From assembly GCA_001038565.1 (NCBI GenBank), contig LFJO01000005.1, positions 344,764-408,763 on the forward strand: DNA of 64,000 nt. Reading direction: 5' to 3'. Below the pieces are notes generated by a model. The model was not told where the DNA came from, searched no databases, and saw only the letters and a list, made by a program, of their open reading frames with translations. The translations under genes and the position numbers were made by a program. Numbering within the stretch: position 1 is the first letter of the stretch; the number at the start of each line of letters is the position of its first letter. This stretch comes from Alkalihalobacillus pseudalcaliphilus (GTDB taxonomy: Bacteria; Bacillota; Bacilli; Bacillales; Bacillaceae_D). Positions 818 to 63,185 of this stretch are shown here, one piece after another.

Positions 818-913
818 GTTATTGTCGTCGTTTGATTAAAAATAAGTGAAACATTTTGATAGATTTGTCGTATATACATATACTAAAGAGTGAGGTTTGT
901 GAGGAGGGGTGTT

Positions 914-3061
914 ATGAAACGTAAACTATTCCTAGTGGGTTCTTTAGTCATGCTTACATTAATGATTGCCTTTATAAGCTATTTATTTATTATATTATTT
1001 GGAAATTATGCGATTGATGAGGAACAGCTACAATTTAATGAAACTAGTGTTATTGTTGATCAATCCGGAGAGACTATCAGTAAATTATTTATAGAGAATC
1101 GAGACGTTGTAACCATTGAACAGATTCCTGAACATATTAAGCATGCATTTGTAGCTGTAGAGGATGTGCGCTTTTATGAACATCATGGCTTTGACTTACG
1201 AGCTATTGGTCGTGCGCTGTATCGCGATATTTTAGCGGGTGCAAAGGTTGAAGGAGGTAGTACGTTAACACAGCAACTTGTGAAAAATGTCTATCTCTCT
1301 AATGAAAAGTCGTGGCTTAGAAAAACGAAAGAAGTTTTAATTGCCATTAATGTGGAAAGAAGATATAGCAAAGATGAGATATTGACGATGTATTTAAATA
1401 GTATTTATTTTGGTCACGGTAATTATGGGATCCAAACAGCTTCTCAATACTTTTTTAATAAAGATGTGAACGAATTAACTGTAGAAGAAGGGGCGTTACT
1501 TGCCTCTATTCCTAAGGCACCTTACCATTATTCGCCTGTAGTAGACAAAGAAAAAAGTGGGGAGCGAAGAAACCTGGTATTAGCTTTAATGGCCCAGCAC
1601 GGGTTTATTTCTGACAAAGAAAAAGAGAAACATCAGGCTGCTGAGATTCGTTTGGATATTCAGGAAAGCGAAGAACAACAAGCTTATTATACGTACCTCG
1701 ATATGGTTATTGCTGAAGCCAGTGAAAAATATAATATTACTAGTGAGGAATTACTCACAAATGGTTATCAGATTGTTGCACCGATTGATCAAACTCTTCA
1801 AAAACAAGCGTATCAAGTCATCCAAGATGAAAGGTACTACCCAGAAGGAAGCACGGACGCAGAAAGTGCTTTTGTCTTGATGGATACTGAAACGGGTGGG
1901 GTACTGGCTGTTCAAGGTGGTAAGGAATATGTACGCCTTGGCTTGAACAGGGTTAACGTAAAGAGGCAACCTGGTTCTACTTTAAAGCCCTTATCTGTAT
2001 ACGCACCCGTTATGGAAAAAGGGGATTACCATCCATATTCTCTCGTCAATGATGAAGAAATGACATTTGCAGGAGGGTATGCGCCGAAAAATGCAGGTGG
2101 TATATACCGAGGAGAAATTACGGTCTATGAGGCTTTAACACACTCAAGTAATGTACCAGCAGTTTGGTTGTTAAATGATATGGGAATTGATACGTCATTG
2201 GATTATTTACAGAAATTTGGTTTTCATATCGATGAACGTCAATTAGGCATTGCTTTAGGAGGTTTGAATGAAGGAGTTACTCCATTCGAGTTAACAAAGG
2301 CTTATCGAGCATTTGCTGCTGAAGGTAAAATCATTGAACCTTATTTTATCGAAAAAATTTATGACTCAGGTGGACATTTGATTGCGGAGAATAAATCTGA
2401 AGAAAAGGAAGTCATAAGTGAACAGACGGCTTGGGATATGACTCGTATGCTTGAATCGGTCGTGGAGCAAGGAACAGGAACAGCTGGCTTCTCTCAGAAC
2501 TCATTAGCGGGGAAAACTGGGACGACTTCTTTTGAAGGTGTGAGTGGTGGAACGAGAGATGCTTGGTTTGTCGGTTATAATCAAGAGGTTGTTGGAGCGA
2601 TGTGGCTGGGATATGACCGAACAACAGAGGACTCGTATTTAACAGGCGGGAGTTCTTATCCGACTAAAATGTTTAAGGAAATCCTTAATGAATCTCCTAG
2701 TCATTTTCAGCAGGTTGCTTGGAGGGTACCTAGTACCGTTGACGATCTTGAACCTCCTGTAAAACTACCAGAGGTAAATGATTTAGTGGCAATTCAATCT
2801 TTTGGTGGTGAAGGGCTAGTGAGTGTGGCATTATCGTGGAGTGCTTCAGAAGATAGTCGCGTTCAATATCGCGTGTATGAGGTGAACGGCGAGGAAAGAA
2901 CGTTATTGTCTACGGTTGTCGGTGGCAATTTCTATTATCAACCAAAGTTGAATATTTTTTCGACAAGTCACTATGAGGTTGTTCCTTATGATTCCCTCAC
3001 ACATCAGGAAGGAACCCGTTCTAATATAGCTGCATCCGAGTTTAAGTTTGGATTTCATTAA
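914..3061 (+). CDS. pbpF: Class A penicillin-binding protein (PBP2c-like)
   Basis: A 715-aa bifunctional peptidoglycan glycosyltransferase/transpeptidase anchored by one N-terminal membrane segment (about 8-30). The glycosyltransferase domain holds EDVRFYEHHG (catalytic E83) and GGSTLTQQLVKN at 114-125. The transpeptidase domain has the SxxK serine in GSTLKP (S355, K358), SSN at 411-413 and KTGTT at 534-538. A short beta-rich tail follows. Length matches B. subtilis PbpF (714 aa), and pbpF also precedes hemEHY there. ATG 914 with GAGGAGG at 901-907 is preferred to an in-frame GTG at 890 that lies upstream of that site. In B. subtilis PbpF acts mainly in spore-wall synthesis; that role here is inferred. 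Confidence 0.88.
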   Translation: MKRKLFLVGSLVMLTLMIAFISYLFIILFGNYAIDEEQLQFNETSVIVDQSGETISKLFIENRDVVTIEQIPEHIKHAFVAVEDVRFYEHHGFDLRAIGRALYRDILAGAKVEGGSTLTQQLVKNVYLSNEKSWLRKTKEVLIAINVERRYSKDEILTMYLNSIYFGHGNYGIQTASQYFFNKDVNELTVEEGALLASIPKAPYHYSPVVDKEKSGERRNLVLALMAQHGFISDKEKEKHQAAEIRLDIQESEEQQAYYTYLDMVIAEASEKYNITSEELLTNGYQIVAPIDQTLQKQAYQVIQDERYYPEGSTDAESAFVLMDTETGGVLAVQGGKEYVRLGLNRVNVKRQPGSTLKPLSVYAPVMEKGDYHPYSLVNDEEMTFAGGYAPKNAGGIYRGEITVYEALTHSSNVPAVWLLNDMGIDTSLDYLQKFGFHIDERQLGIALGGLNEGVTPFELTKAYRAFAAEGKIIEPYFIEKIYDSGGHLIAENKSEEKEVISEQTAWDMTRMLESVVEQGTGTAGFSQNSLAGKTGTTSFEGVSGGTRDAWFVGYNQEVVGAMWLGYDRTTEDSYLTGGSSYPTKMFKEILNESPSHFQQVAWRVPSTVDDLEPPVKLPEVNDLVAIQSFGGEGLVSVALSWSASEDSRVQYRVYEVNGEERTLLSTVVGGNFYYQPKLNIFSTSHYEVVPYDSLTHQEGTRSNIAASEFKFGFH

Positions 3062-3067
3062 GAAGAA

Positions 3068-3098
3068 ACAGGTATGAGTCGGGGCTCATACCTGTTTT
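3068..3098 (+). terminator. Intrinsic terminator after pbpF
   Basis: A perfect 11-bp stem ACAGGTATGAG/CTCATACCTGT with a 6-base loop, then TTTT. The T-tract runs into TTTTGTATG, the end motif of the TATGAAAG repeat family seen elsewhere in the window. Confidence 0.9.
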
Positions 3099-3160
3099 GT
3101 ATGTAGGTGTACTAAAGATAATATATGCATCTTCCATGATCGCTGCGTGAGTCGGCCACC

Positions 3161-3221
3161 CCATTCCCTACGCCACCAACAAAGATGAAAGTCATCTATC
3201 ACCATCTCAACGTTCCATAAT
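3161..3221 (-). repeat. TATGAAAG-family dispersed repeat, partial copy with conserved junction
   Basis: Reads CCATTCCCTACGCCACCAAC then AAAGATGAAAGTCATC, nearly matching 39176-39211 and the reverse complement of copies at 20700, 21240 and 45682. The 30 bases after it (CATCTATC, then CAACTTAACG-like) are also shared with the 39 kb locus. At both places they lead into a 52-bp hairpin array. No gene lies in 3099-4260; apart from this copy, the array and the hemE promoter I see nothing else. Confidence 0.7.
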
Positions 3222-3909
3222 GTTTGTGTAGATGCTGGGTCGGGATGACGGAGTATCTACACAAAGAGAAGGTTAATGTGCAGATACGGAGCCCGAATCA
3301 TGGAGTATCTGCACAAAGAGGTGGTTAATGTGTAGATAAGGAGTCCAACCCAAGGAGTATCTGCACAAAGAGGTGGTTAATGTGCAGATAAGGAGGCAAA
3401 ACCTTGGAGTATCTGCACAAAGAGGTGGTTAATGTGCAGATAAGGAGTCCAACCCAAGGAGTATCTGCGCACAAAGAGAGGGTTAATGTGCAGATAAGGA
3501 GCCCGAATCATGGAGTATCTGCACAAAGAGAGGGTTAATGTGCAGATAAGGAGCCCGAATCATGGAGTATCTGCACAAAGAGGTGGTTAATGTGCAGATA
3601 CTGAGGCAAAACCTTAGAGTATCTGCACAAAGGGGTGGTTAATGTGCAGATACTGAGGCAAAACCTTGGAGTATCTGCACAAAGGGGTGGTTAATGTGTA
3701 GATAAGAAGTCCAAATCATGGAGTATCTGCACAAAGGAGTGGTTAATGTGCAGATACTGAGGCAAAACCTTGGAGTATCTGCACAAAGGGGTGGTTAATG
3801 TGTAGATAAGGAGTCCAACCCAAGGAGTATCTGCACAAAGGGGCGGTTAATGTGTAGATACGGAGCCCAAATCATGGAGTATCTGCACAAAGGGGTCATT
3901 CATGTGTAA
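3222..3909 (+). repeat. Tandem array of about 13 hairpin units, 52-bp period (family A, array 1)
   Basis: Each unit is a 10-bp inverted repeat TGTGCAGATA ... TATCTGCACA around a 19-base loop, joined by a 13-base linker of the type AAGAGGTGGTTAA. The total is 52 bp, for example 3381-3432. Thirteen right arms can be counted between 3253 and 3890, a few at 53-55 bp spacing. Three loop types recur in mixed order: GGAGCCCGAATCATGGAG, GGAGTCCAACCCAAGGAG and GAGGCAAAACCTTGGAG. The period is not a multiple of three and no ORF runs through. Some arms carry TGTGTAGATA, so drift is visible. Confidence 0.95.
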
Positions 3910-7929: not shown

Positions 7930-8487
7930 ATGAATATGACGAAAGAAATAAATGTAATAGAAGCACTTCGTCATAATCGTCATGATTGGTTAAATGTGAT
8001 GCAACTAGTTAAAACCAATTTAGCTTTAGGAAATTACGAAAGGATTGAGGAATTAATACAACAGACGGTACAAACATGTGTCAATGAATCAAAGCTTTCA
8101 AGTTTAGGAATTCCTAAAGTTGCAACAAAATTGTTGACGTATAATTGGTTATATGGAAAAGAGAGTTCTTTACATGTCGAAGTGAATGTTGCTGGTAATG
8201 AAGCAAATCTAAATAAACGTGAAGACTTGATAGATGGGCTTGTAACAGAGTTACTTTCATCATTTTCTAAATATAGTGATTGGCGGACAGAAAATCATTT
8301 ATTAATTACGTTTGTTTTGAATGAGAGCTGTTGTGAATTACTTTTTCAGTACGAAGGTGACCTTCAAGTAAGTTCAGAGAATCTCTTCGTATTTGATCAT
8401 GGAAATGAGTTTAAAATAGAGATAGTGGAATGGCAGCGTGATACATGCTTATTAAGGGTGCAGCTGCCCATTAATAGAGGTGAATGA
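7930..8487 (+). CDS. spo0B: Spo0B sporulation phosphotransferase
   Basis: A 185-aa protein that relays phosphate from Spo0F to Spo0A in the sporulation phosphorelay. The motif [10 protein letters not shown] near the N-terminus carries the phospho-accepting histidine, here H18. It is followed by the helical-hairpin consensus [17 protein letters not shown] and [11 protein letters not shown] degenerate kinase-like alpha/beta domain without ATP-binding motifs completes it, as expected for Spo0B. AAGGGG at 7922-7927 supports ATG 7930. The stop lies 1 base before the obg ATG, so the two are co-translated as in B. subtilis. The usual upstream rplU-rpmA cluster is absent. Confidence 0.9.
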
Positions 8488-8488
8488 A

Positions 8489-9769
8489 ATGTTTGTAGAT
8501 AAGGTAAAGGTATATGTAAAAGGTGGAGACGGTGGTAACGGTATGGTTGCTTATCGCCGAGAAAAATATGTTCCAGATGGTGGCCCGGCTGGTGGAGATG
8601 GTGGCCGTGGTGCGAGTGTTGTTTTTGAAGTGGAGGAAGGTCTACGTACGTTAATGGATTTTCGTTATAACCGCCATTTTAAAGCATCTAAAGGAGAGAA
8701 TGGGCGTTCTAAAAGTATGCACGGAAAGAATGCACAAGATATGATTGTAAAGGTTCCACCAGGTACGACAGTTATTGATGATAAAACAGGACAAGTACTT
8801 GCTGATTTAACTGAACATGGTCAAAAAGCAACAATAGCAAAAGGTGGTCGCGGTGGCCGCGGTAATATTCGATTTGCGACACCGGCAAACCCAGCACCAG
8901 AAATTGCTGAAAATGGAGAGCCGGGAATTGAGCGAGAAGTTACAGTAGAGCTAAAAGTACTTGCTGATGTTGGTTTGGTAGGATTTCCAAGTGTAGGAAA
9001 GTCAACGTTATTATCGGTCGTATCTGCTGCAAAGCCAAAAATCGCTGATTATCATTTTACAACGATTACGCCAAATTTAGGGGTTGTTGAAACAGATGAT
9101 CAACGCAGTTTTGTTATGGCAGATTTACCTGGTTTAATTGAGGGAGCACATGAAGGAATAGGTCTAGGTCATCAATTTTTGAGACATATTGAACGGACAA
9201 GGGTAATTGTTCACGTTATCGATATGTCTGCCTTAGAGGGGAGAGATCCTTACGAGGATTATGTAAAGATTAACGACGAACTTAAACAATATAATTTAAG
9301 GTTACTTGAACGTCCACAACTCATTGTCGCTAATAAAATGGACATGCCTGAAGCTGAGGAAAACCTTCGTATTTTTAAAGGGAAATTAACAGATGACGCA
9401 CCCATTTTCCCTATTTCAGCCTTCACAAAACAAGGTGTACGAGAATTGTTGCTCGCTGTTGCTGATAAAATTGAGGAAACGCCTGAATTCCCACTGTACG
9501 AAGAGACAGAGGAGGCGCGCGTTGTTTATAAGCATGAGAAGAAAGAGGAGCCATTTATCATTACGCGTGCAGATGATGGGGTTTTTGAATTAGCTGGAGC
9601 GGAGTTAGAACGACTCTTTAAAATGACTGACTTTTCAAGAGACGAATCCGTCAAACGCTTTGCGAGACAGATGCGCGGAATGGGCGTTGATCAAGCGCTT
9701 CGTACAAAAGGAGCAAAAGACGGCGACCTTGTCCGTATCATGAAGTTTGAATTTGAGTTTATCGAATAG
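8489..9769 (+). CDS. obgE: GTPase Obg
   Basis: A 426-aa essential GTPase involved in ribosome assembly and stress signalling, and linked to sporulation entry in B. subtilis. The glycine-rich Obg fold (1-158) begins [18 protein letters not shown]. The G domain has GFPSVGKS at 165-172, DLPG, NKMD and SAF. A C-terminal OCT domain (about 345-426) ends EFEFIE. ATG 8489 is chosen, not the in-frame GTG at 8480, because AGAGGTGA (8476-8483) is its ribosome site and homologues start MFVD. Confidence 0.97.
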
Positions 9770-9876: not shown

Positions 9877-10262
9877 ATGTGCAAATATGGAAGCTGGTGT
9901 GGAGCGTATTTCAAAGAGAGGCAGTTAATGTGCAGATACGGGAGAGGAAGTAGTCGGTATCTGCACAAAGAGCCGGTTTATGTACAGATACGGGAGAGTA
10001 AGTAGCCAGTATCTGCACAAAGAGTCGGTTTATGTGCAGATAAGGAAGAGTAAGTAGCCAGTATCTGCACGAAGAGCCGGTTTATGTACAGATACGGGAG
10101 AGGAAGTAGTCGGTATCTGCACGAAGAGTCTGTTTATGTGCAGATAAGGAAGAGTAAAGAGCCGGTATCTGCACAAAGAGTCGGTTAATGTGCAGATAAG
10201 GAAGAGTAAGTAGCCGGTATCTGCACAAAGAGGCAGTTAATGTGTAGATACTGGAGAGAACC
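9877..10262 (+). repeat. Tandem array of hairpin units, 52-bp period (family A, array 2)
   Basis: Right arms TATCTGCAC start at 9958, 10010, 10062, 10114, 10166 and 10218, exactly 52 bp apart. A decayed unit lies before them and a left half after. Arms are TGTGCAGATA or TGTACAGATA against TATCTGCACA/G. Loops are GGGAGAGGAAGTAGTCGG or AGGAAGAGTAAGTAGCC types, unlike array 1. The linker is AAGAGCCGGTTTA. Orientation is the same as array 1. It fills most of the gap between obg and pheB. Confidence 0.95.
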
Positions 10263-17212: not shown

Positions 17213-17348
17213 CGTTCATGACAATTCGTAGCCCTGTCCACTGGTATAAAACAGTTAAATCTCACATACATTTGCGAATAAGTATAATTTCATTCTAGAC
17301 GTAATCTATAATTTGGGCACTTTTACAGTGTCAACTTGCCTATAATCT

Positions 17349-17356
17349 CATACAAT
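17349..17356 (+). promoter_or_regulatory. Possible sigma-E-type -10 element upstream of safA
   Basis: CATACAAT matches the sigma-E -10 consensus and lies 25 bases before the safA start. safA is a sigma-E gene in B. subtilis. The -35 region is not convincing, so this is tentative. Confidence 0.4.
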
Positions 17357-17380
17357 GTAATGAATGTAAGAGGAGGGAGC

Positions 17381-18526
17381 ATGATCGTGAAAATTCATAT
17401 TGTCCAAAAAGGAGAATCTCTTTGGAAAATAGCTCAAAAGCATGGAGTTAATTTTGAAGAATTAAAAAATGTGAACACACAACTAAGTAACCCAGATGTT
17501 TTAATGCCTGGCATGAAGGTGAAAATTCCAACTGGCAGTGTACCTGTAAAAAAAGAAGCACCGATATCGCCTCAAACTTTAATAAAAGAGCAACCTGTTG
17601 CTCCAGCTGTAAAGGAGCATCCTATTATGAAAAAAGAGCAACCGATTGCTCCAATTCAACAAATGCCTATACAGCAACAGCCAGCTTCGCCTAATTATGA
17701 GGCTAATATGAATGTATTTCTATATAACCCACAGCCTAAAAAAGTAATGCCAGCCAAAAAAGAGCAACCAGTTATTCAAGCGAAGGAAAAGCCGGTGGCA
17801 CCCAAACCAATAAAAGAAAAGCCGATCGCTAAGCCGCCAAAACCGCAACCTCAAGTACAACAAATGCCACAGATGCCTGTGCAACCACAAATGGAAGCAC
17901 CAGAATATTGTGAGCCAGTTATGCCGCAACCATGTCCACCGATGAATATGGTTCCAATTAGTCCTATGATGCCAGGTTGTGCTAATTGTGGGCACCCTGT
18001 TCAGCCTATGCCTTATGGTCAAAAAGGTCATTGGTTTGCTCCACCACCAATGCATCATCAAGGGCATCATCATTATGGGAATATGGGTGGTACTCAGATG
18101 CATCAATCAAAAGAGGAATGTGTGGTGGAACCTGTTCACCATCATCCGCCGGCCCAAACATTTCCATCGTTTAACCATCATTACCAACCAGACCATCATG
18201 GGAACGGAATGATGCCAATGCCGGGTCAAAACGGAAACGGAATGATGCCAATGCCGGGTCAAAACGGAAATGGAATGATGCCATTCCCAGGCCAAAACGG
18301 AAACGGAATGATGCCATTCCCAGGCCAAAACGGAAATGGAATGATGCCGATGCCAGGTCAAAACGGAAATGGAATGATGCCATTCCCAGGCCAAAATGGA
18401 ATGATGCCAATGCCTGGTAACCAAGCTGGAATGTTCCACAGTATTCAAGATCAATTTATGCCAAGACATCAGGAGCCAAAGGCGAATATGAAGCATTATA
18501 GTGAAGAAGACGATTATGAAGATTAA
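17381..18526 (+). CDS. safA: Spore coat morphogenetic protein SafA
   Basis: A 381-aa protein with an N-terminal LysM domain (about 1-50; HIVQKGESLWKIAQKHG) followed by long low-complexity Pro/Lys/Gln and His/Met-rich regions. LysM anchors SafA to the spore cortex-coat interface, where it organises inner-coat assembly. The position after nadA and before coxA, and the length (B. subtilis 387 aa), agree. ATG 17381 follows AGGAGGGA; an in-frame ATG at 17336 lies upstream of the promoter region and is rejected. The C-terminal third contains an 11-residue repeat described separately. The acidic tail is SEEDDYED. Confidence 0.9.
   Translation: MIVKIHIVQKGESLWKIAQKHGVNFEELKNVNTQLSNPDVLMPGMKVKIPTGSVPVKKEAPISPQTLIKEQPVAPAVKEHPIMKKEQPIAPIQQMPIQQQPASPNYEANMNVFLYNPQPKKVMPAKKEQPVIQAKEKPVAPKPIKEKPIAKPPKPQPQVQQMPQMPVQPQMEAPEYCEPVMPQPCPPMNMVPISPMMPGCANCGHPVQPMPYGQKGHWFAPPPMHHQGHHHYGNMGGTQMHQSKEECVVEPVHHHPPAQTFPSFNHHYQPDHHGNGMMPMPGQNGNGMMPMPGQNGNGMMPFPGQNGNGMMPFPGQNGNGMMPMPGQNGNGMMPFPGQNGMMPMPGNQAGMFHSIQDQFMPRHQEPKANMKHYSEEDDYED
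18200..18420 (+). repeat. 33-bp in-frame tandem repeat inside safA
   Basis: Six copies of an 11-residue unit GNGMMP(M/F)PGQN and a shortened seventh (GMMPMPGN). Nucleotide copies are nearly identical (for example CCGGGTCAAAACGGAAACGG), which suggests recent slippage or recombination. It makes the coat protein locally glycine-, methionine- and proline-rich. Confidence 0.95.
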
Positions 18527-20699: not shown

Positions 20700-20766
20700 A
20701 CACTTTCATATTTGTTGGTGGCGTAAGTGAATCTGTGCTTCACCATGTGAGTTTTGTATGAAAGTT
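20700..20766 (+). repeat. TATGAAAG-family palindromic repeat, full copy
   Basis: CACTTTCATATTTGTTGGTG, GCGTAAGTGAAT, GCTTCACCATGTG, GTTTTGTATGAAAGTT. The ends CTTTCATA/TATGAAAG are inverted and the centre can form a second stem. Copies occur at 21240, 39151 (inverted), 3161 (inverted, partial) and 45682. Confidence 0.8.
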
Positions 20767-21235: not shown

Positions 21236-21307
21236 ACACTACTTTCATATTTGTTGGTGGTGAAGTGAATAAATAGGACTTCACTTCACCATAAGCGTTT
21301 TGTATGT
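21236..21307 (+). repeat. TATGAAAG-family palindromic repeat, second copy
   Basis: CACTACTTTCATATTTGTTG, GTGGTGAAGTGAAT, GGACTTCACTTCACCATAAG, CGTTTTGTATG. It has a strong inner stem GTGAAGTGAA/TTCACTTCAC. It lies about 75 bases before the ruvA start. Confidence 0.8.
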
Positions 21308-31691: not shown

Positions 31692-32344
31692 ACTAATGTG
31701 GTTAGTAACTCAACAAAGAGGGCTGTTAATGTGCAGATAAGGAAGAAAAGGTAGTCAGTATCTGAACAAAGAGGCGATTAATGTGCAGATATGGAAGAGA
31801 AAAGAGCTAGTATCTGAACAAAAAGGGTGCTAATGTGCAGATGCGGAAGAGAAAAGAGCTAGTATCTGAACAAAGAGGGCTGTTAATGTGCAGATAAGGA
31901 AGAAAAGGTAGTCAGTATCTGAACAAAGAGGCGATTAATGTGCAGATATGGAAGAGAAAAGAGCTAGTATCTGAACAAAAAGGGTGCTAATGTGCAGATG
32001 CGGAAGAGAAAAGAGCTAGTATCTGAACAAAAAGGGCGTTAATGTGCAGTTAAGGAAGAAAAGGTAGTCAGTATCTGAACAAAGAGGCGATTAATGTGCA
32101 GATACGGAAGAGAAAAGAGCTAGTATCTGAACAAAGAGGCGATTAATGTGCAGATATGGAAGAGAAAAGAGCTAGTATCTGAACAAAAAGGGTGCTAATG
32201 TGCAGATGCGGAAGAAAAAGTAGTCAGTATCTGAACAAAGAGGCGATTAATGTGCAGATACGGAAGAGAAAAGAGCTAGTATCTAAACAAAAAGGGTGCT
32301 AATGTGCAGATGTGGAAGAGAAAAGAGCTAGTATCTGAATAAAG
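31692..32344 (+). repeat. Tandem array of 12 hairpin units, 52-bp period (family A, array 3)
   Basis: Right arms start at 31759, 31811, 31863, 31916, 31968, 32020, 32072, 32124, 32176, 32228, 32280 and 32332. Arms are TGTGCAGATA against TATCTGAACA, so nearly every unit carries the same C-to-A change, leaving one mismatch in the stem. Loops are AGGAAGAAAAGGTAGTCAG or GGAAGAGAAAAGAGCTAG. A three-unit block of about 157 bp is repeated almost exactly (31722 onward and 31879 onward). Confidence 0.95.
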
Positions 32345-32395
32345 AAAAATGTATTGTTCTGCTGGCACTTTGTTCAATTGAATTTTGCTTCTTTA

Positions 32396-32636
32396 CTTGG
32401 TGGCTCTTCATTCACTTTGTTCTTGTTCTTTTTAATATTTGTTGTAAGAATGATTTTGAACTAGAGAATCAGCAGTAACCCAACGGGCGAGTTATGCTCC
32501 CATGGGACATAGTGGCAGAGCTGAAATCCGCTGGCTGCACCGATTAGCTCAGCGCCACGCGATTGTCTCGGAGCATGATTTTCGGTAGCGGCAATTAACG
32601 CTCTGCACATGAGCTTTAGCCAACTTTCATACAAAA
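32396..32636. repeat. Dispersed element C, second copy (right part)
   Basis: Matches 20948-21196: TGGTGGCTCTTCATTCACTT, GAATCAGCAGTAACC, GTGGCAGAGCTGAAATCCGC, GGAGCATGATTTTCGGTAGC, and the terminal AACTTTCATACAAAA at 32622-32636. The left terminal repeat of the first copy is missing; array 3 lies there instead. The rest of the gap 32637-32766 shows nothing I recognise. Confidence 0.75.
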
Positions 32637-39071: not shown

Positions 39072-39148
39072 AAATTAAACAGTCAAAAAAAGACCATCAA
39101 CGAGTATGAAAGAATAATTTTACCTGGTGGATTTACGGTCACTTTAAT

Positions 39149-39237
39149 TTTTATACAAAACCCATGGCTGTGCCCCATTCACTTCGCCACCAACAAATAT
39201 GAAAGTCATCTATCGCCAACTTAACGATATATTAAGC
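39149..39237 (-). repeat. TATGAAAG-family repeat, inverted copy, with conserved junction
   Basis: TTTATACAAAACCCATGG, then CCATTCACTTCGCCACCAAC, then AAATATGAAAGTCATC. The following CTATCGCCAACTTAACG matches the sequence after the 3161 copy, and both lead into a family A hairpin unit. Confidence 0.75.
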
Positions 39238-39384
39238 TTTGTACAGATACTGACTCAAACCTTGGAGTAATTACACGAAAAAGGCTGAACGCGACAGTTA
39301 CTCGAGTGGAGAGGGTGAGTAACTGCACAAAGAGAGGGTTAATGTGAAGATACGGAGGCAATTCCTTGTAGTAACTGCACAAAG
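39238..39384 (+). repeat. Degenerate family A hairpin units
   Basis: About three decayed units: TTTGTACAGATA ... AACCTTGGAGTAATTACACG; CAGTTACTC ... GAGTAACTGCACAAAGAG; TTAATGTGAAGATACGGAGG ... CCTTGTAGTAACTGCACAAAG. Loops GAGGCAATTCCTTG resemble the third loop type of array 1. Confidence 0.7.
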
Positions 39385-39406
39385 GCCACTCATGGATAGT
39401 GACGAC

Positions 39407-39552
39407 TTCTTAACCTGTTGATACGTTTACAACTAGTCCTCTCCAAATATATAAGTAGGGTTTCAATCTTTAACTGGTGGCTTTTCATTCATAAACGGTT
39501 TTGAGGATTCTACACTTTGCCGTAGCCCCGCCCATGTAACTTTCATACAAAA
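39407..39552. repeat. Mosaic of dispersed repeat fragments
   Basis: 39415-39440 (CCTGTTGATACGTTTACAAC) resembles part of element D. 39470-39537 is the inverted copy of the block at 20630-20690. 39538-39552 is the terminal AACTTTCATACAAAA. The gap between dtd and the next gene is therefore almost all repeat-derived. Confidence 0.65.
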
Positions 39553-45482: not shown

Positions 45483-45517
45483 AGGCTAGCTATCTTTATG
45501 GATAGTTAGCCTTTATT
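45483..45517 (+). terminator. Intrinsic terminator after 6S RNA
   Basis: GGCTAGCTATC pairs with GATAGTTAGCC and is followed by TTTATTTTAT, running into TATGAAAGTTAC of the next repeat. Confidence 0.85.
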
Positions 45518-45520
45518 TTA

Positions 45521-45674
45521 TATGAAAGTTACTTATGGGCGATAGTTTGTGCCGTGAAGTTAGCTGGTCATCTATCTCGCGATCAATGACCTTAGTAGGA
45601 CAGTGCTCCCAGTTTAGTCAGGCCGACTCCTAATGGTGATCGAGTTGTAAACGCTCCAACAGTTTGAACAGTCG
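45521..45674. repeat. Dispersed element D, copy 1
   Basis: TATGAAAGTTACTTATGGGC, GATAGTTTGTGCCGTGAAG, CTTAGTAGGACAGTGCTCCC, GGCCGACTCCTAATG, GAGTTGTAAACG, AACAGTTTGAACAGTC. It matches the reverse complement of 54192-54346 along its whole length. No ORF of note. Confidence 0.8.
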
Positions 45675-45679
45675 CCACT

Positions 45680-45724
45680 ACTTTCATCTTTGTTGGTGGC
45701 GAAGTGAATCGGGCTTCGCCATGT
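45680..45724 (+). repeat. TATGAAAG-family repeat, truncated copy
   Basis: ACTACTTTCATCTTTGTTGG, GGCGAAG-tgaatcggg-CTTCGCC stem, CATGTG. It ends 10 bases before the stop of the convergent metallo-hydrolase gene and may supply its terminator hairpin. Confidence 0.75.
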
Positions 45725-45734
45725 GCGATTGAAA

Positions 45735-51929: not shown

Positions 51930-54083
51930 ATGTTTAAATCATTAAGAATGAAATTGCTTTTGTTTTTTATCGGTACAACATTTTTACCGTTACTTTTTAT
52001 TTCATATATTTCCTTTCAATCTCAAAAGCAAGATATAGAAAATCAACATAAGCAGCTCCTATACACATTAGGTGAAAGTGCTGCTGTTAATTTAGATGAT
52101 TTTATACAAGAACGATTTAGCGATGTGTATGCATTAAGTGAGAATCCGCTCATTATGGAGCGAGACGCGAATATAGAAGAGATTTCAGCAGAACTAAATA
52201 AATTTGTGCAAATTCATTCTCTGTATTATGGGGCCATTTTCCTTAATGAAGAGGGAGTTGTTATCGCTGATACCGATCAGACAATGGTTGGTACAGACCT
52301 GTCTTCTAGAGAATGGGTGCAAAATACATTAAATGGTGGTTTTTTCCTTTCAGATATTTATCAATCAGATATGATCCAAGGACCTATTCTTATATTATCT
52401 GCATCGGTAGAAGATGAATTAGGGAATGTAATCGGTGCTGTTTCGCCTTCTTTTAATTTAATTGAACTTTGGGAAAGAATTGAATTAATTACGCGACAGC
52501 AACAAAGCATTGGTTTAGGTGGCTTTGCTTTTTTAATGAACGGTGATGGGCACTTAATTGCTCACCCGGAGATTGATCGAATGACTGATTTTAATTATTT
52601 CCAAGCGAATAACCTCTCTCAAGAACAATTGAACCATATGGTTAGGAACAATTTGTATTTTGAAAATGAAGAGAGAGAGCATCATCAATATTTTGTGCAA
52701 CTAGATAAAACAAATGGTTTTGAGCATGACTGGTATATAGGAATATCGGTGCCAAAAAGTCATGTGGCAGAGCCGTTACAACAGCTAATCGGTAAGTATA
52801 TATTTCTCTTTAGCTGTGTATTTGTTATTGTTATTTTTGCGATTGTGAAATTATCCAATTATATTGTTAAGCCATTACAGAAACTAGTCTATGCCACGTC
52901 TGACTTTGCCTTTGGAAAAATCGTCGATCCATTATCAACGAACGCTTATCATGAGGTAAACACATTGACTCGTGCATTTAATATGATGACAAGGCGCCTA
53001 GTGGAACGTGAGAAGAGCCAACAAAAATCATCACTTATATTAGAGGCTACTAATAACGGCATATTCGCCTTTCAAAGAGATAGCCGCTTAATTACGACGT
53101 TTAATAAGACGTGTGAAGAGTTATTTGGAGTAAAAAAAGAAGCGGTCATAGGCTTGAGAATTGATGATTTAATTAAATATAACGAAGGCTTTGCTCAATT
53201 CATTTATTGTGCAAAGCTACACGATGCATTAGAAAAAAGGAAATTTAATGATCGTTATGAATTTTATTGTCAGCATAAGGAAGAAGCACGTTATTTCTTC
53301 ATGAGTGTTCAACCGCTGCCTTCAATGAATAACCAAGATGATTATGAAGGAATTTTGGTCGTATTTGATGATATTACCGATAAAAGAGAAATGGAGATGG
53401 AGCTTAATCGTTCTGAAAAACTGCAAATGGTTGGGCAATTGTCGGCAGGATTTGCCCATGAAATTCGAAACCCATTGACAACGATTCGTGGTTTTATGCA
53501 GGTTTTCAAAAGATCCGATGTGAACGTGGAGCAGCAAGAACATTATGATTTGATTTTGCAGGAAATTGACCGTGTGAACGATATTATTAGTGAGATGCTC
53601 AATATAGCTAATCCCAATGTTATAAGAAGTAAAGAAGAAACGAATATTAACGATGTAATTAAAGGGATTTTTTCTTTATATAAAACCGAGGCTGGTTGGC
53701 GTAGAACCCAAGTCATTCTTGAATTAGAGGATTTACCTACCTTATTTATAGAAAAAAATAAACTACACCAAATCATTATGAACCTAGTTAAAAATGGTTT
53801 AGAAGCGATCAATGTAGAAGGTGAACTGAAGATTCAAACCTATAAGTCTACAAATGGTGAGCAAGTTCTGATTAAGGTCATTGATAACGGAGAAGGTATG
53901 GATGAACGTACACTCGATAAACTGGGCACGCCATTTTTTACAACAAAAGAGTCTGGAACTGGATTAGGAATCATCACATGCTTCCGACTCGTAGAAGATC
54001 TTGGTGGGACCTTAAACGTTAAAAGTGAAAAAGAAAAAGGCACCATTTTCACAATTGAACTTCCGAACAAAAGAAGCAGTTAA
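51930..54083 (+). CDS. Orphan sensor histidine kinase with dCACHE, HAMP and PAS domains (sporulation kinase type)
   Basis: A 717-aa membrane kinase. Helix 1 is about 8-27 and helix 2 about 285-306, bounding an extracellular double-CACHE sensor. A HAMP (about 307-360), a PAS domain (about 368-485), a HisKA with H510 in GFAHEIRNPLTTIRG and a HATPase (NLVKNGLEA, DNGEGMD, GTGLG) follow. The H-box closely resembles that of the B. subtilis sporulation kinases KinA-E, and no response regulator is adjacent. Input to the Spo0F-Spo0B-Spo0A relay is therefore plausible, though inferred. ATG 51930 has GAGGGGAGA at good spacing. The stop TAA lies inside a family A repeat unit. Confidence 0.85.
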   Translation: MFKSLRMKLLLFFIGTTFLPLLFISYISFQSQKQDIENQHKQLLYTLGESAAVNLDDFIQERFSDVYALSENPLIMERDANIEEISAELNKFVQIHSLYYGAIFLNEEGVVIADTDQTMVGTDLSSREWVQNTLNGGFFLSDIYQSDMIQGPILILSASVEDELGNVIGAVSPSFNLIELWERIELITRQQQSIGLGGFAFLMNGDGHLIAHPEIDRMTDFNYFQANNLSQEQLNHMVRNNLYFENEEREHHQYFVQLDKTNGFEHDWYIGISVPKSHVAEPLQQLIGKYIFLFSCVFVIVIFAIVKLSNYIVKPLQKLVYATSDFAFGKIVDPLSTNAYHEVNTLTRAFNMMTRRLVEREKSQQKSSLILEATNNGIFAFQRDSRLITTFNKTCEELFGVKKEAVIGLRIDDLIKYNEGFAQFIYCAKLHDALEKRKFNDRYEFYCQHKEEARYFFMSVQPLPSMNNQDDYEGILVVFDDITDKREMEMELNRSEKLQMVGQLSAGFAHEIRNPLTTIRGFMQVFKRSDVNVEQQEHYDLILQEIDRVNDIISEMLNIANPNVIRSKEETNINDVIKGIFSLYKTEAGWRRTQVILELEDLPTLFIEKNKLHQIIMNLVKNGLEAINVEGELKIQTYKSTNGEQVLIKVIDNGEGMDERTLDKLGTPFFTTKESGTGLGIITCFRLVEDLGGTLNVKSEKEKGTIFTIELPNKRSS

Positions 54084-54130
54084 TGTGAAGATACGGAGGC
54101 AGGAAGAGTGGGTATCTGTACAAAGAACGT
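54075..54130 (+). repeat. Solo family A hairpin unit overlapping the kinase stop codon
   Basis: GCAGTTAATGTGAAGATACG, GAGGCAGGAAGAGTGG, GTATCTGTACAAAGAACG. The linker's GTTAATG supplies the TAA stop of the kinase at 54081-54083. The arms pair TGTGAAGATAC with GTATCTGTACA, imperfectly. Confidence 0.8.
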
Positions 54131-54191: not shown

Positions 54192-54346
54192 GACTGTTCA
54201 AACTGTTGGCACGTTTACAACTCGATCAGCATTAGGAGTCGGCCTGAACAAACAGGGAGCACTGTCCTACTAAGGGCATGGATCGCTAGATGGATGACGA
54301 GCTAACTTCACGGCACAAACTATCGCCCATAAGCAACTTTTATATA
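54192..54346. repeat. Dispersed element D, copy 2 (inverted relative to 45521)
   Basis: GACTGTTCAAACTGTTGGCA, CGTTTACAACTCGATC, CATTAGGAGTCGGCCTGA, GGGAGCACTGTCCTACTAAG, CTTCACGGCACAAACTATCG, CCCATAAGCAACTTTTATA. It is the reverse complement of 45521-45674 with modest divergence. It abuts the rarA terminator. Confidence 0.8.
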
Positions 54347-54390
54347 AAAGAGCAACCAGCAGCAATTAACTATTCTGCTAGTTGCTCTTT
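54347..54390. terminator. Terminator of rarA, possibly bidirectional
   Basis: AAAGAGCAACCAGCAG pairs with CTGCTAGTTGCTCTTT (one mismatch). On the minus strand it is followed by TTATATAAAAG. Confidence 0.82.
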
Positions 54391-63029: not shown

Positions 63030-63185
63030 TATGCAAAAGAAGTATGAAAAGAGGGTTCAATGCGACGTAAATGGAAATGCTCGGCAATGAAGTGCTGAAA
63101 AGAGCCGTCAATGCGGAGCAAATAGAAATACAGGGCAAAGAAGCGATAAAAAGCGCATACATTGCCGTGCAAACTAGCATATGTA
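63030..63185. repeat. Degenerate tandem repeat, 51-bp period
   Basis: Two full and two partial units: ATGC..AAATGGAAATGCTCGG, CAATGAAGTGCTGAAAAGAG; ATGC..AAATAGAAATACAGGG, CAAAGAAGCGATAAAAAGCG. Copies begin at 63060 and 63111. The sequence differs from family A but the period is nearly the same. Nothing else is seen between 63008 and the permease gene. Confidence 0.65.

Follow-up and report, generated by a model that had tools for sequence, protein, structure and literature searches.

What is a tandem array of thirteen hairpin-like units with a 52-bp period, lying between two genes of Bacillus pseudalcaliphilus, an alkaliphile from soil, and what keeps its length and its arms? The array was noticed in a stretch of 64,000 nucleotides, analysed here at its full length and called the window. 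A sequence-only reading had seen in it a hairpin array of no named family, under selection for the pairing of its arms. The features needed to place it are these:

890-3061: penicillin-binding-protein gene (Pfam Transgly and Transpeptidase)
3067..3098, + strand: intrinsic-terminator-like hairpin, read directly in the sequence, after the penicillin-binding-protein gene and before the leader
3131..3192, + strand: decayed leader (A) module directly 5′ of array 1, its 3′ part CACCAACAAAGATGAAAGTCATCTATC intact
3225..3908, + strand: array 1, 13 units of the 52-bp satellite with a partial linker at the end

A catalogued satellite family

Array 1 has the terminator-like hairpin of the penicillin-binding-protein gene on one side and the upstream region of hemE on the other. 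TRF reports it at 3250-3896 (period 52, 12.4 copies, 87% match), and reading by hand places 13 head-to-tail units between 3225 and about 3896, of which one measures 54 bp, with two additional bases in the 3′ arm (TATCTGCGCACA); both confirm the tandem array. Its geometry had been described correctly as a 10-bp arm, a 19-base loop, a second 10-bp arm and a 13-base linker. The arms, said to be conserved, are near-perfect but not identical: TGTGCAGATA or, with a G-T wobble, TGTGTAGATA faces TATCTGCACA, and the divergent first unit carries TGTGTAGATG/TATCTACACA. Three loop types (CGGAGCCCGAATCATGGAG, AGGAGTCCAACCCAAGGAG and CTGAGGCAAAACCTTGGAG) recur as claimed; to these are added the loop of the first unit and at least one mosaic loop (AGAAGTCCAAATCATGGAG). 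A coding repeat is ruled out by the period of 52 and by stops, as had been argued from the period. Elsewhere, a 15-unit array (L055 8760-9734) reads through without a stop as a frame of 324 aa that would encode a repeating peptide; this is likely fortuitous. In a genome of the same genus (G001) the spacer between the penicillin-binding-protein gene and hemE holds its own, unrelated 189-bp repeat in three copies (C12, L072 10269-10834).

CRISPR arrays likewise alternate constant and variable segments. Unlike unique CRISPR spacers, the present loops recur and drift (three types within array 1), the variable part lies inside the dyad, and there are dozens of loci. The immediate neighbours of array 1 are the penicillin-binding-protein gene and hemE, and cas genes are absent next to it.

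For B. pseudalcaliphilus, Subirana & Messeguer (2021; PMC8161180) give a satellite family 5_52_25 with the consensus GTTAATGTGaAGATACgGAgGCcAAACcttGgAGTAtCTGCACAAAGAGggG. The majority unit over 336 units, GTTAATGTGAAGATACGGAGGCCAAACCTTGGAGTATCTGCACAAAGAGGGG, equals this consensus at 52/52 positions. Array 1 (period 52, 12.4 copies) lies within the published bounds of 51-53 nt and at least four tandem copies, and the genome is of the same species, strain PN-137T. Judged by this identity of consensus, the 52-bp repeat of array 1 is already catalogued as Fam_5_52_25, and the statement that no named family has this unit was wrong. It had been allowed that the unit might turn out to be a known repeat with an assigned role; known it is, and the main text of the publication assigns no role to satellites, proposing nucleoid proteins or small RNAs. 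The same source describes 52-nt Bacillus satellites as present at many loci, 51-53 bp long and species-specific in sequence (PMC8161180).

A unit model applied to the examined stretches of the genome counted 370 units at 56 loci, 39 of which are arrays of at least three units. Genome-wide, 310 matches to the linker pattern lie on one contig strand and 20 on the other, against 0 for the reversed control, an abundance far beyond chance. The satellite is absent from all other genomes among 40 of the family. The exact arm pattern, put forward as a probe across Bacillaceae genomes, has no match in relatives and 15 single, scattered matches elsewhere in a contig database; in bare form it matches a single viral contig. 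A plasmid or phage source was rejected, with no match to array 1. Two further published families of the species (50 and 53 nt) are also present in the examined stretches, and the 52-nt family of B. alcalophilus was sought in G001 and not found.

Further copies in the window, and two other families in the genome, are as follows:

9917..10258, + strand: array 2, also of this family, with 6.6 units and a higher-order period of 156 bp (three units); it lies between obg (8480-9769) and an ACT-domain gene and has no leader
31703..32345, + strand: array 3, also of this family, with 12.3 units and a higher-order period of 156 bp; it lies downstream of secF and has no leader
32378..32636, + strand: trailer-type interspersed repeat after array 3, terminating in the right-end motif (CAACTTTCATACAAAA)
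39146..39206, + strand: leader (A) module
39240..39385, + strand: decayed 52-bp units after that leader
39386..39552, + strand: trailer, with the right-end motif TAACTTTCATACAAAA at 39537-39552
54070..54126, + strand: single 52-bp unit, whose GTTAATG holds the stop codon that ends the reading frame upstream
L032 3437-4439, L052 12115-12637 and L065 5537-6092: sites of a 51-bp family (3_50_31 in the published catalogue) whose arms are CTCGGGGTT/AACCCCGAG, with as many as 20 copies, leader usually absent
L049 1118-1319, L057 17608-17859 and L044 8782-8923: sites of a 52-bp family GAGTAACT-N23-AGTTACTC-N13, with the 39+13 geometry of the array 1 family

Arrays 2 and 3, the decayed copy (39240-39385) and the single unit (54070-54126) had been overlooked. 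Array 2 is missing from the syntenic obg spacer of G001; this nearest compared relative is only about 70% identical, too diverged to offer a clean empty site. Hybrid units with the GAGTAACT-N23-AGTTACTC-N13 family stand at the 3′ ends of several main-family arrays. A further 51-bp family of unrelated sequence (AAAGAAGTGCTGAAAAGAGCCGTCAATGCG...), oriented with the leading strand, is found in the window at 63036-63143 and at L031 3115-3307 and L069 3190-3375. The window also contains an in-frame 33-bp coding repeat (18203-18401; NGMMPMPGQNG, in the ORF 17336-18526), an inverted pair of trailer module copies that are 92% identical (45516-45673 and 54192-54349), and Rfam matches to a T-box leader (39857), a SAM riboswitch (43400) and 6S RNA (45288).

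Conservation of unit length and arms

The draft genome of strain PN-137T was assembled from Illumina 2×150 reads with K=71 (PMC4536690), several arrays of the family hold N runs or terminate contigs, and several contain stretches of near-identical units. The exact number and order of units are therefore unreliable, and with 150-base reads neither can serve, in a single array, as evidence of shuffling. That the arrays themselves are an assembly artefact, which these same features might suggest, is scarcely credible given 56 separate loci with differing units and unique flanks, and given 52-bp arrays in a single-contig genome and in published complete genomes. The doubt is confined to unit number and order only. 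Homogenisation within arrays, proposed from array 1, is borne out by loop identity, which is 0.854 within and 0.615 between arrays.

Across units the arms are conserved at about 93% and the loops at 74%. In 245 distinct units, paired arm cells amount to 89.1% vs a shuffled mean of 89.1%, and changes on both sides of a pair number 5 vs 4.7 expected; among 53 locus consensi there are none. The commonest arm pair genome-wide, TGTGAAGATA/TATCTGCACA, contains an A-G mismatch. Since arm changes occur without compensation above the level of shuffles, the claim that the array is selected for paired arms is not supported. The arms look conserved as sequence, through recognition or recent homogenisation.

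The tendency to form an inverted repeat was assessed on 34 units between 50 and 54 bp long, of which 27 were taken from a published table (Subirana & Messeguer 2021) and 7 from the present analysis. Their folding energy lies below that of dinucleotide shuffles (mean z -1.41, Stouffer -8.3, a combined figure somewhat inflated because a few entries are related to one another), and in 16/34 the inverted repeat is longer than in 95% of shuffles. Thus, inverted repeats in the 50-54-bp class are common, not universal. A second species was sampled by taking 20 kb at each of 60 evenly spaced positions along a single-contig genome (G421), which, by the agreement of its repeats with a published consensus, is probably B. 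cellulosilyticus. All 13 sampled arrays are exactly 52 bp in period. This length is 4.95 helical turns, supporting the earlier remark that it comes close to five.

These observations agree with a protein that would recognise the dyad TGTG(A/C)AGATA-N19-TA(T/A)CTGCACA and polymerise or cluster at five-turn spacing, acting in nucleoid organisation or as a decoy. What is conserved in the arms is their sequence and not their pairing, the period holds in the second species, inverted repeats are enriched across the 34 families, and a protein was put forward, as a hypothesis, by Subirana & Messeguer. Turnover is, however, species-specific, and with no sequence common to the families or species, reading all of them by sequence is beyond any single protein; no candidate protein was found. 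We regard such an array as unlikely.

Leader, array and trailer modules

Directly upstream of 24/39 arrays of at least three units lies a leader of about 63 bp, laid out as AACTTTCATATAAAAC-NCNCATGGYGGAGCC-(loop)-GCTCCRCCACCAACAAAGATGAAAGT, followed by a short CATCTATCGCC...CTTAA... stretch and the first unit. The junction of leader and array (CATCTATCGCCACCTTAAGG...AAGG, then TGTG) is repeated at about 30 loci. On the other side stand trailers common to several loci, which end in TAACTTTCATATAAAA before unique DNA begins; the right-end motif has 225 copies vs 3 in the control. Leaders without an array are joined directly to trailers (for example AGTGGCGACTGTTCAAACTG...), and leaders with or without an array precede several trailer types. 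The element ends were examined for the marks of a MITE, terminal inverted repeats and target-site duplications: both ends bear ACTTTCATATAAAA, in most cases directly repeated, and no empty site was similar enough to reveal duplications. The leader was counted in at least 130 copies, all in the B. pseudalcaliphilus genome, with none in 40 other genomes of the family among the matches listed. Array 1 itself follows a decayed leader, and no trailer was recognised downstream of it.

The leader, the optional array and the varied trailers form a high-copy modular intergenic repeat family that resembles pneumococcal BOX elements. BOX elements (boxA-(boxB)n-boxC in S. pneumoniae and S. suis; PMC3049150) likewise enclose a tandem inner module, variable in number, between outer modules, and are likewise intergenic, of high copy and structured; in S. 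suis differing outer modules surround the same inner module, as here. The inner unit of 52 bp is unlike that of BOX, and the likeness is one of organisation.

For the leader hairpin we counted pairs on a structure named by the analyst: 48 both-sided changes keep the pairing, vs 20.6 in shuffled alignments and 4-10 with the partner slid, and six of the eight inner pairs contribute. RNAalifold returned no consensus structure on the leader alignment. Because only the leader hairpin covaries, it is the leader, and not the 52-bp unit, whose structure is conserved. This bears on the idea that the arrays are transcribed and that their RNA or excised hairpins serve as small RNAs or a sponge. The covarying leader speaks for it, as do the 52-nt satellites of B. 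coagulans, which are transcribed according to RNA-seq (PMC8625621). Against it, the arm pairs of the unit, unlike the leader, show no covariation, array 1 lies downstream of a terminator-like hairpin, and no Rfam family matched on the arrays. An RNA role thus appears distinctly improbable.

The remaining 15/39 arrays of at least three units, arrays 2 and 3 among them, have no leader, and most of the other 52-bp families are likewise without one; the frame is therefore not needed for the satellite to persist. Such standalone arrays would be expected of a neutral satellite without a mobile frame, arising by duplication, slippage and conversion and growing beside older leader/trailer intergenic repeats. 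Independent growth is disfavoured because the identical leader-to-array junction recurs at about 30 loci, and we consider this account rather improbable.

Mobile elements of two known kinds invite comparison. REP/BIME sequences with RAYT transposases are likewise intergenic palindromic repeats in clusters. IS200/IS605-type elements target the lagging-strand template, giving replication-polar insertion orientation (PMC6006769); this polarity and their terminal hairpins are a known route to such a bias, with the Y1 transposase missing here. Y1_Tnp (PF01797) has no match in the B. pseudalcaliphilus genome, five control genomes being positive, and a RAYT/IS200 origin is thereby ruled out. No transposase or autonomous partner was found in the search, which covered the Y1 family.

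Orientation relative to replication

The leading strand was assigned by local GC skew. By this measure the array strand is the leading strand at 52/56 loci (93%; p 1e-11), and so are 108/130 leaders among the matches listed. For pneumococcal BOX, in contrast, the leading-strand share is only 60.8%, much as for genes (PMC3049150). Gene direction is rejected as the cause of the present orientation, since loci between opposed genes still agree: 18/19 arrays and, among the matches listed, 25/30 leaders remain on the leading strand where the two flanking genes run in opposite directions to each other. All four exceptions lie in negative-skew DNA, where 4/9 array loci disagree with the leading strand, and two of them are less than 20 kb apart (C14 467-486 kb). 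The element cluster opposed to local GC skew at C14:467000-487000 is possibly a recent inversion or island. Within the window, leaders without main-family arrays in the minority (lagging) orientation are found at 20702-20766(-), 21241-21306(-) and 45680-45731(-).

In the second species, the purine-rich strand is leading in 13/13 arrays of period 50-54, whose sequence is unrelated to the array 1 family. As background, 74-79% of array-free intergenic segments and 53/64 (83%) other non-coding arrays carry purines on the leading strand. Purine loading can therefore explain part of the orientation and not the whole; the excess over background is real, not absolute. We also considered GAGAAGGG, which we take to be the SpoIIIE recognition sequence of B. 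subtilis. It is skewed to the leading strand 22:3 in the examined stretches, and with only 4 copies in arrays it was rejected as an explanation.

Taken with the modular organisation, these data incline us to regard the array 1 family as, somewhat probably, a selfish or neutral satellite that has spread in part by belonging to a modular repeat polarised with replication. Array 1 is one locus of Fam_5_52_25, a family that is in part the optional, copy-number-variable inner module of an element ordered as leader hairpin (A), 52-bp array (B)n and one of several trailers ending in TAACTTTCATATAAAA. Leader and trailer copies would spread by a mechanism that senses replication polarity. The arrays may grow and homogenise through slippage and unequal exchange at the fork, with the purine-rich strand retained on the leading side, and the 52-bp length might be kept by a protein or a step in replication that gauges roughly five turns of the helix. 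We think that the arrays are mainly selfish or neutral DNA and not a dedicated host device. Against the selfish modular reading count the missing transposase or autonomous partner, with the Y1 family absent, the want of a clean empty site, the leaderless arrays and families, the share of the orientation that is background and the 4/9 disagreeing loci in negative-skew DNA. In addition, simple slippage does not explain a strict 52-bp length in unrelated species, and the B. coagulans satellites are transcribed.

A wider proposal, which we advance as decidedly speculative, is that Bacillales 52-bp satellites of any sequence may be replication-polarised elements, built or kept only with one strand leading and only at five helical turns by a process at the fork (the handling of ssDNA on the lagging strand, or a protein that forms filaments), and that in B. 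pseudalcaliphilus a modular mobile repeat, itself equipped with a structured leader, may have taken them up as cassettes. The modular frame, the covariation in the leader and the polarity by strand are new relative to the main text of Subirana & Messeguer (PMC8161180), which is without strand orientation, flanking modules or a leader hairpin, and our literature search found no paper joining them with 52-nt satellites.

The 52-nt repeats of Bacillus have been a published puzzle, with constant length, no common sequence and no function. It can now be checked that length and inverted repeat are common to unrelated families and that arrays follow the direction of replication in two species; in B. 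pseudalcaliphilus many arrays belong, as modules, to a larger element whose leader is structured. Should further genomes show this polarity too, the replication fork, and not transcription or RNA, would be the place to look for the mechanism.
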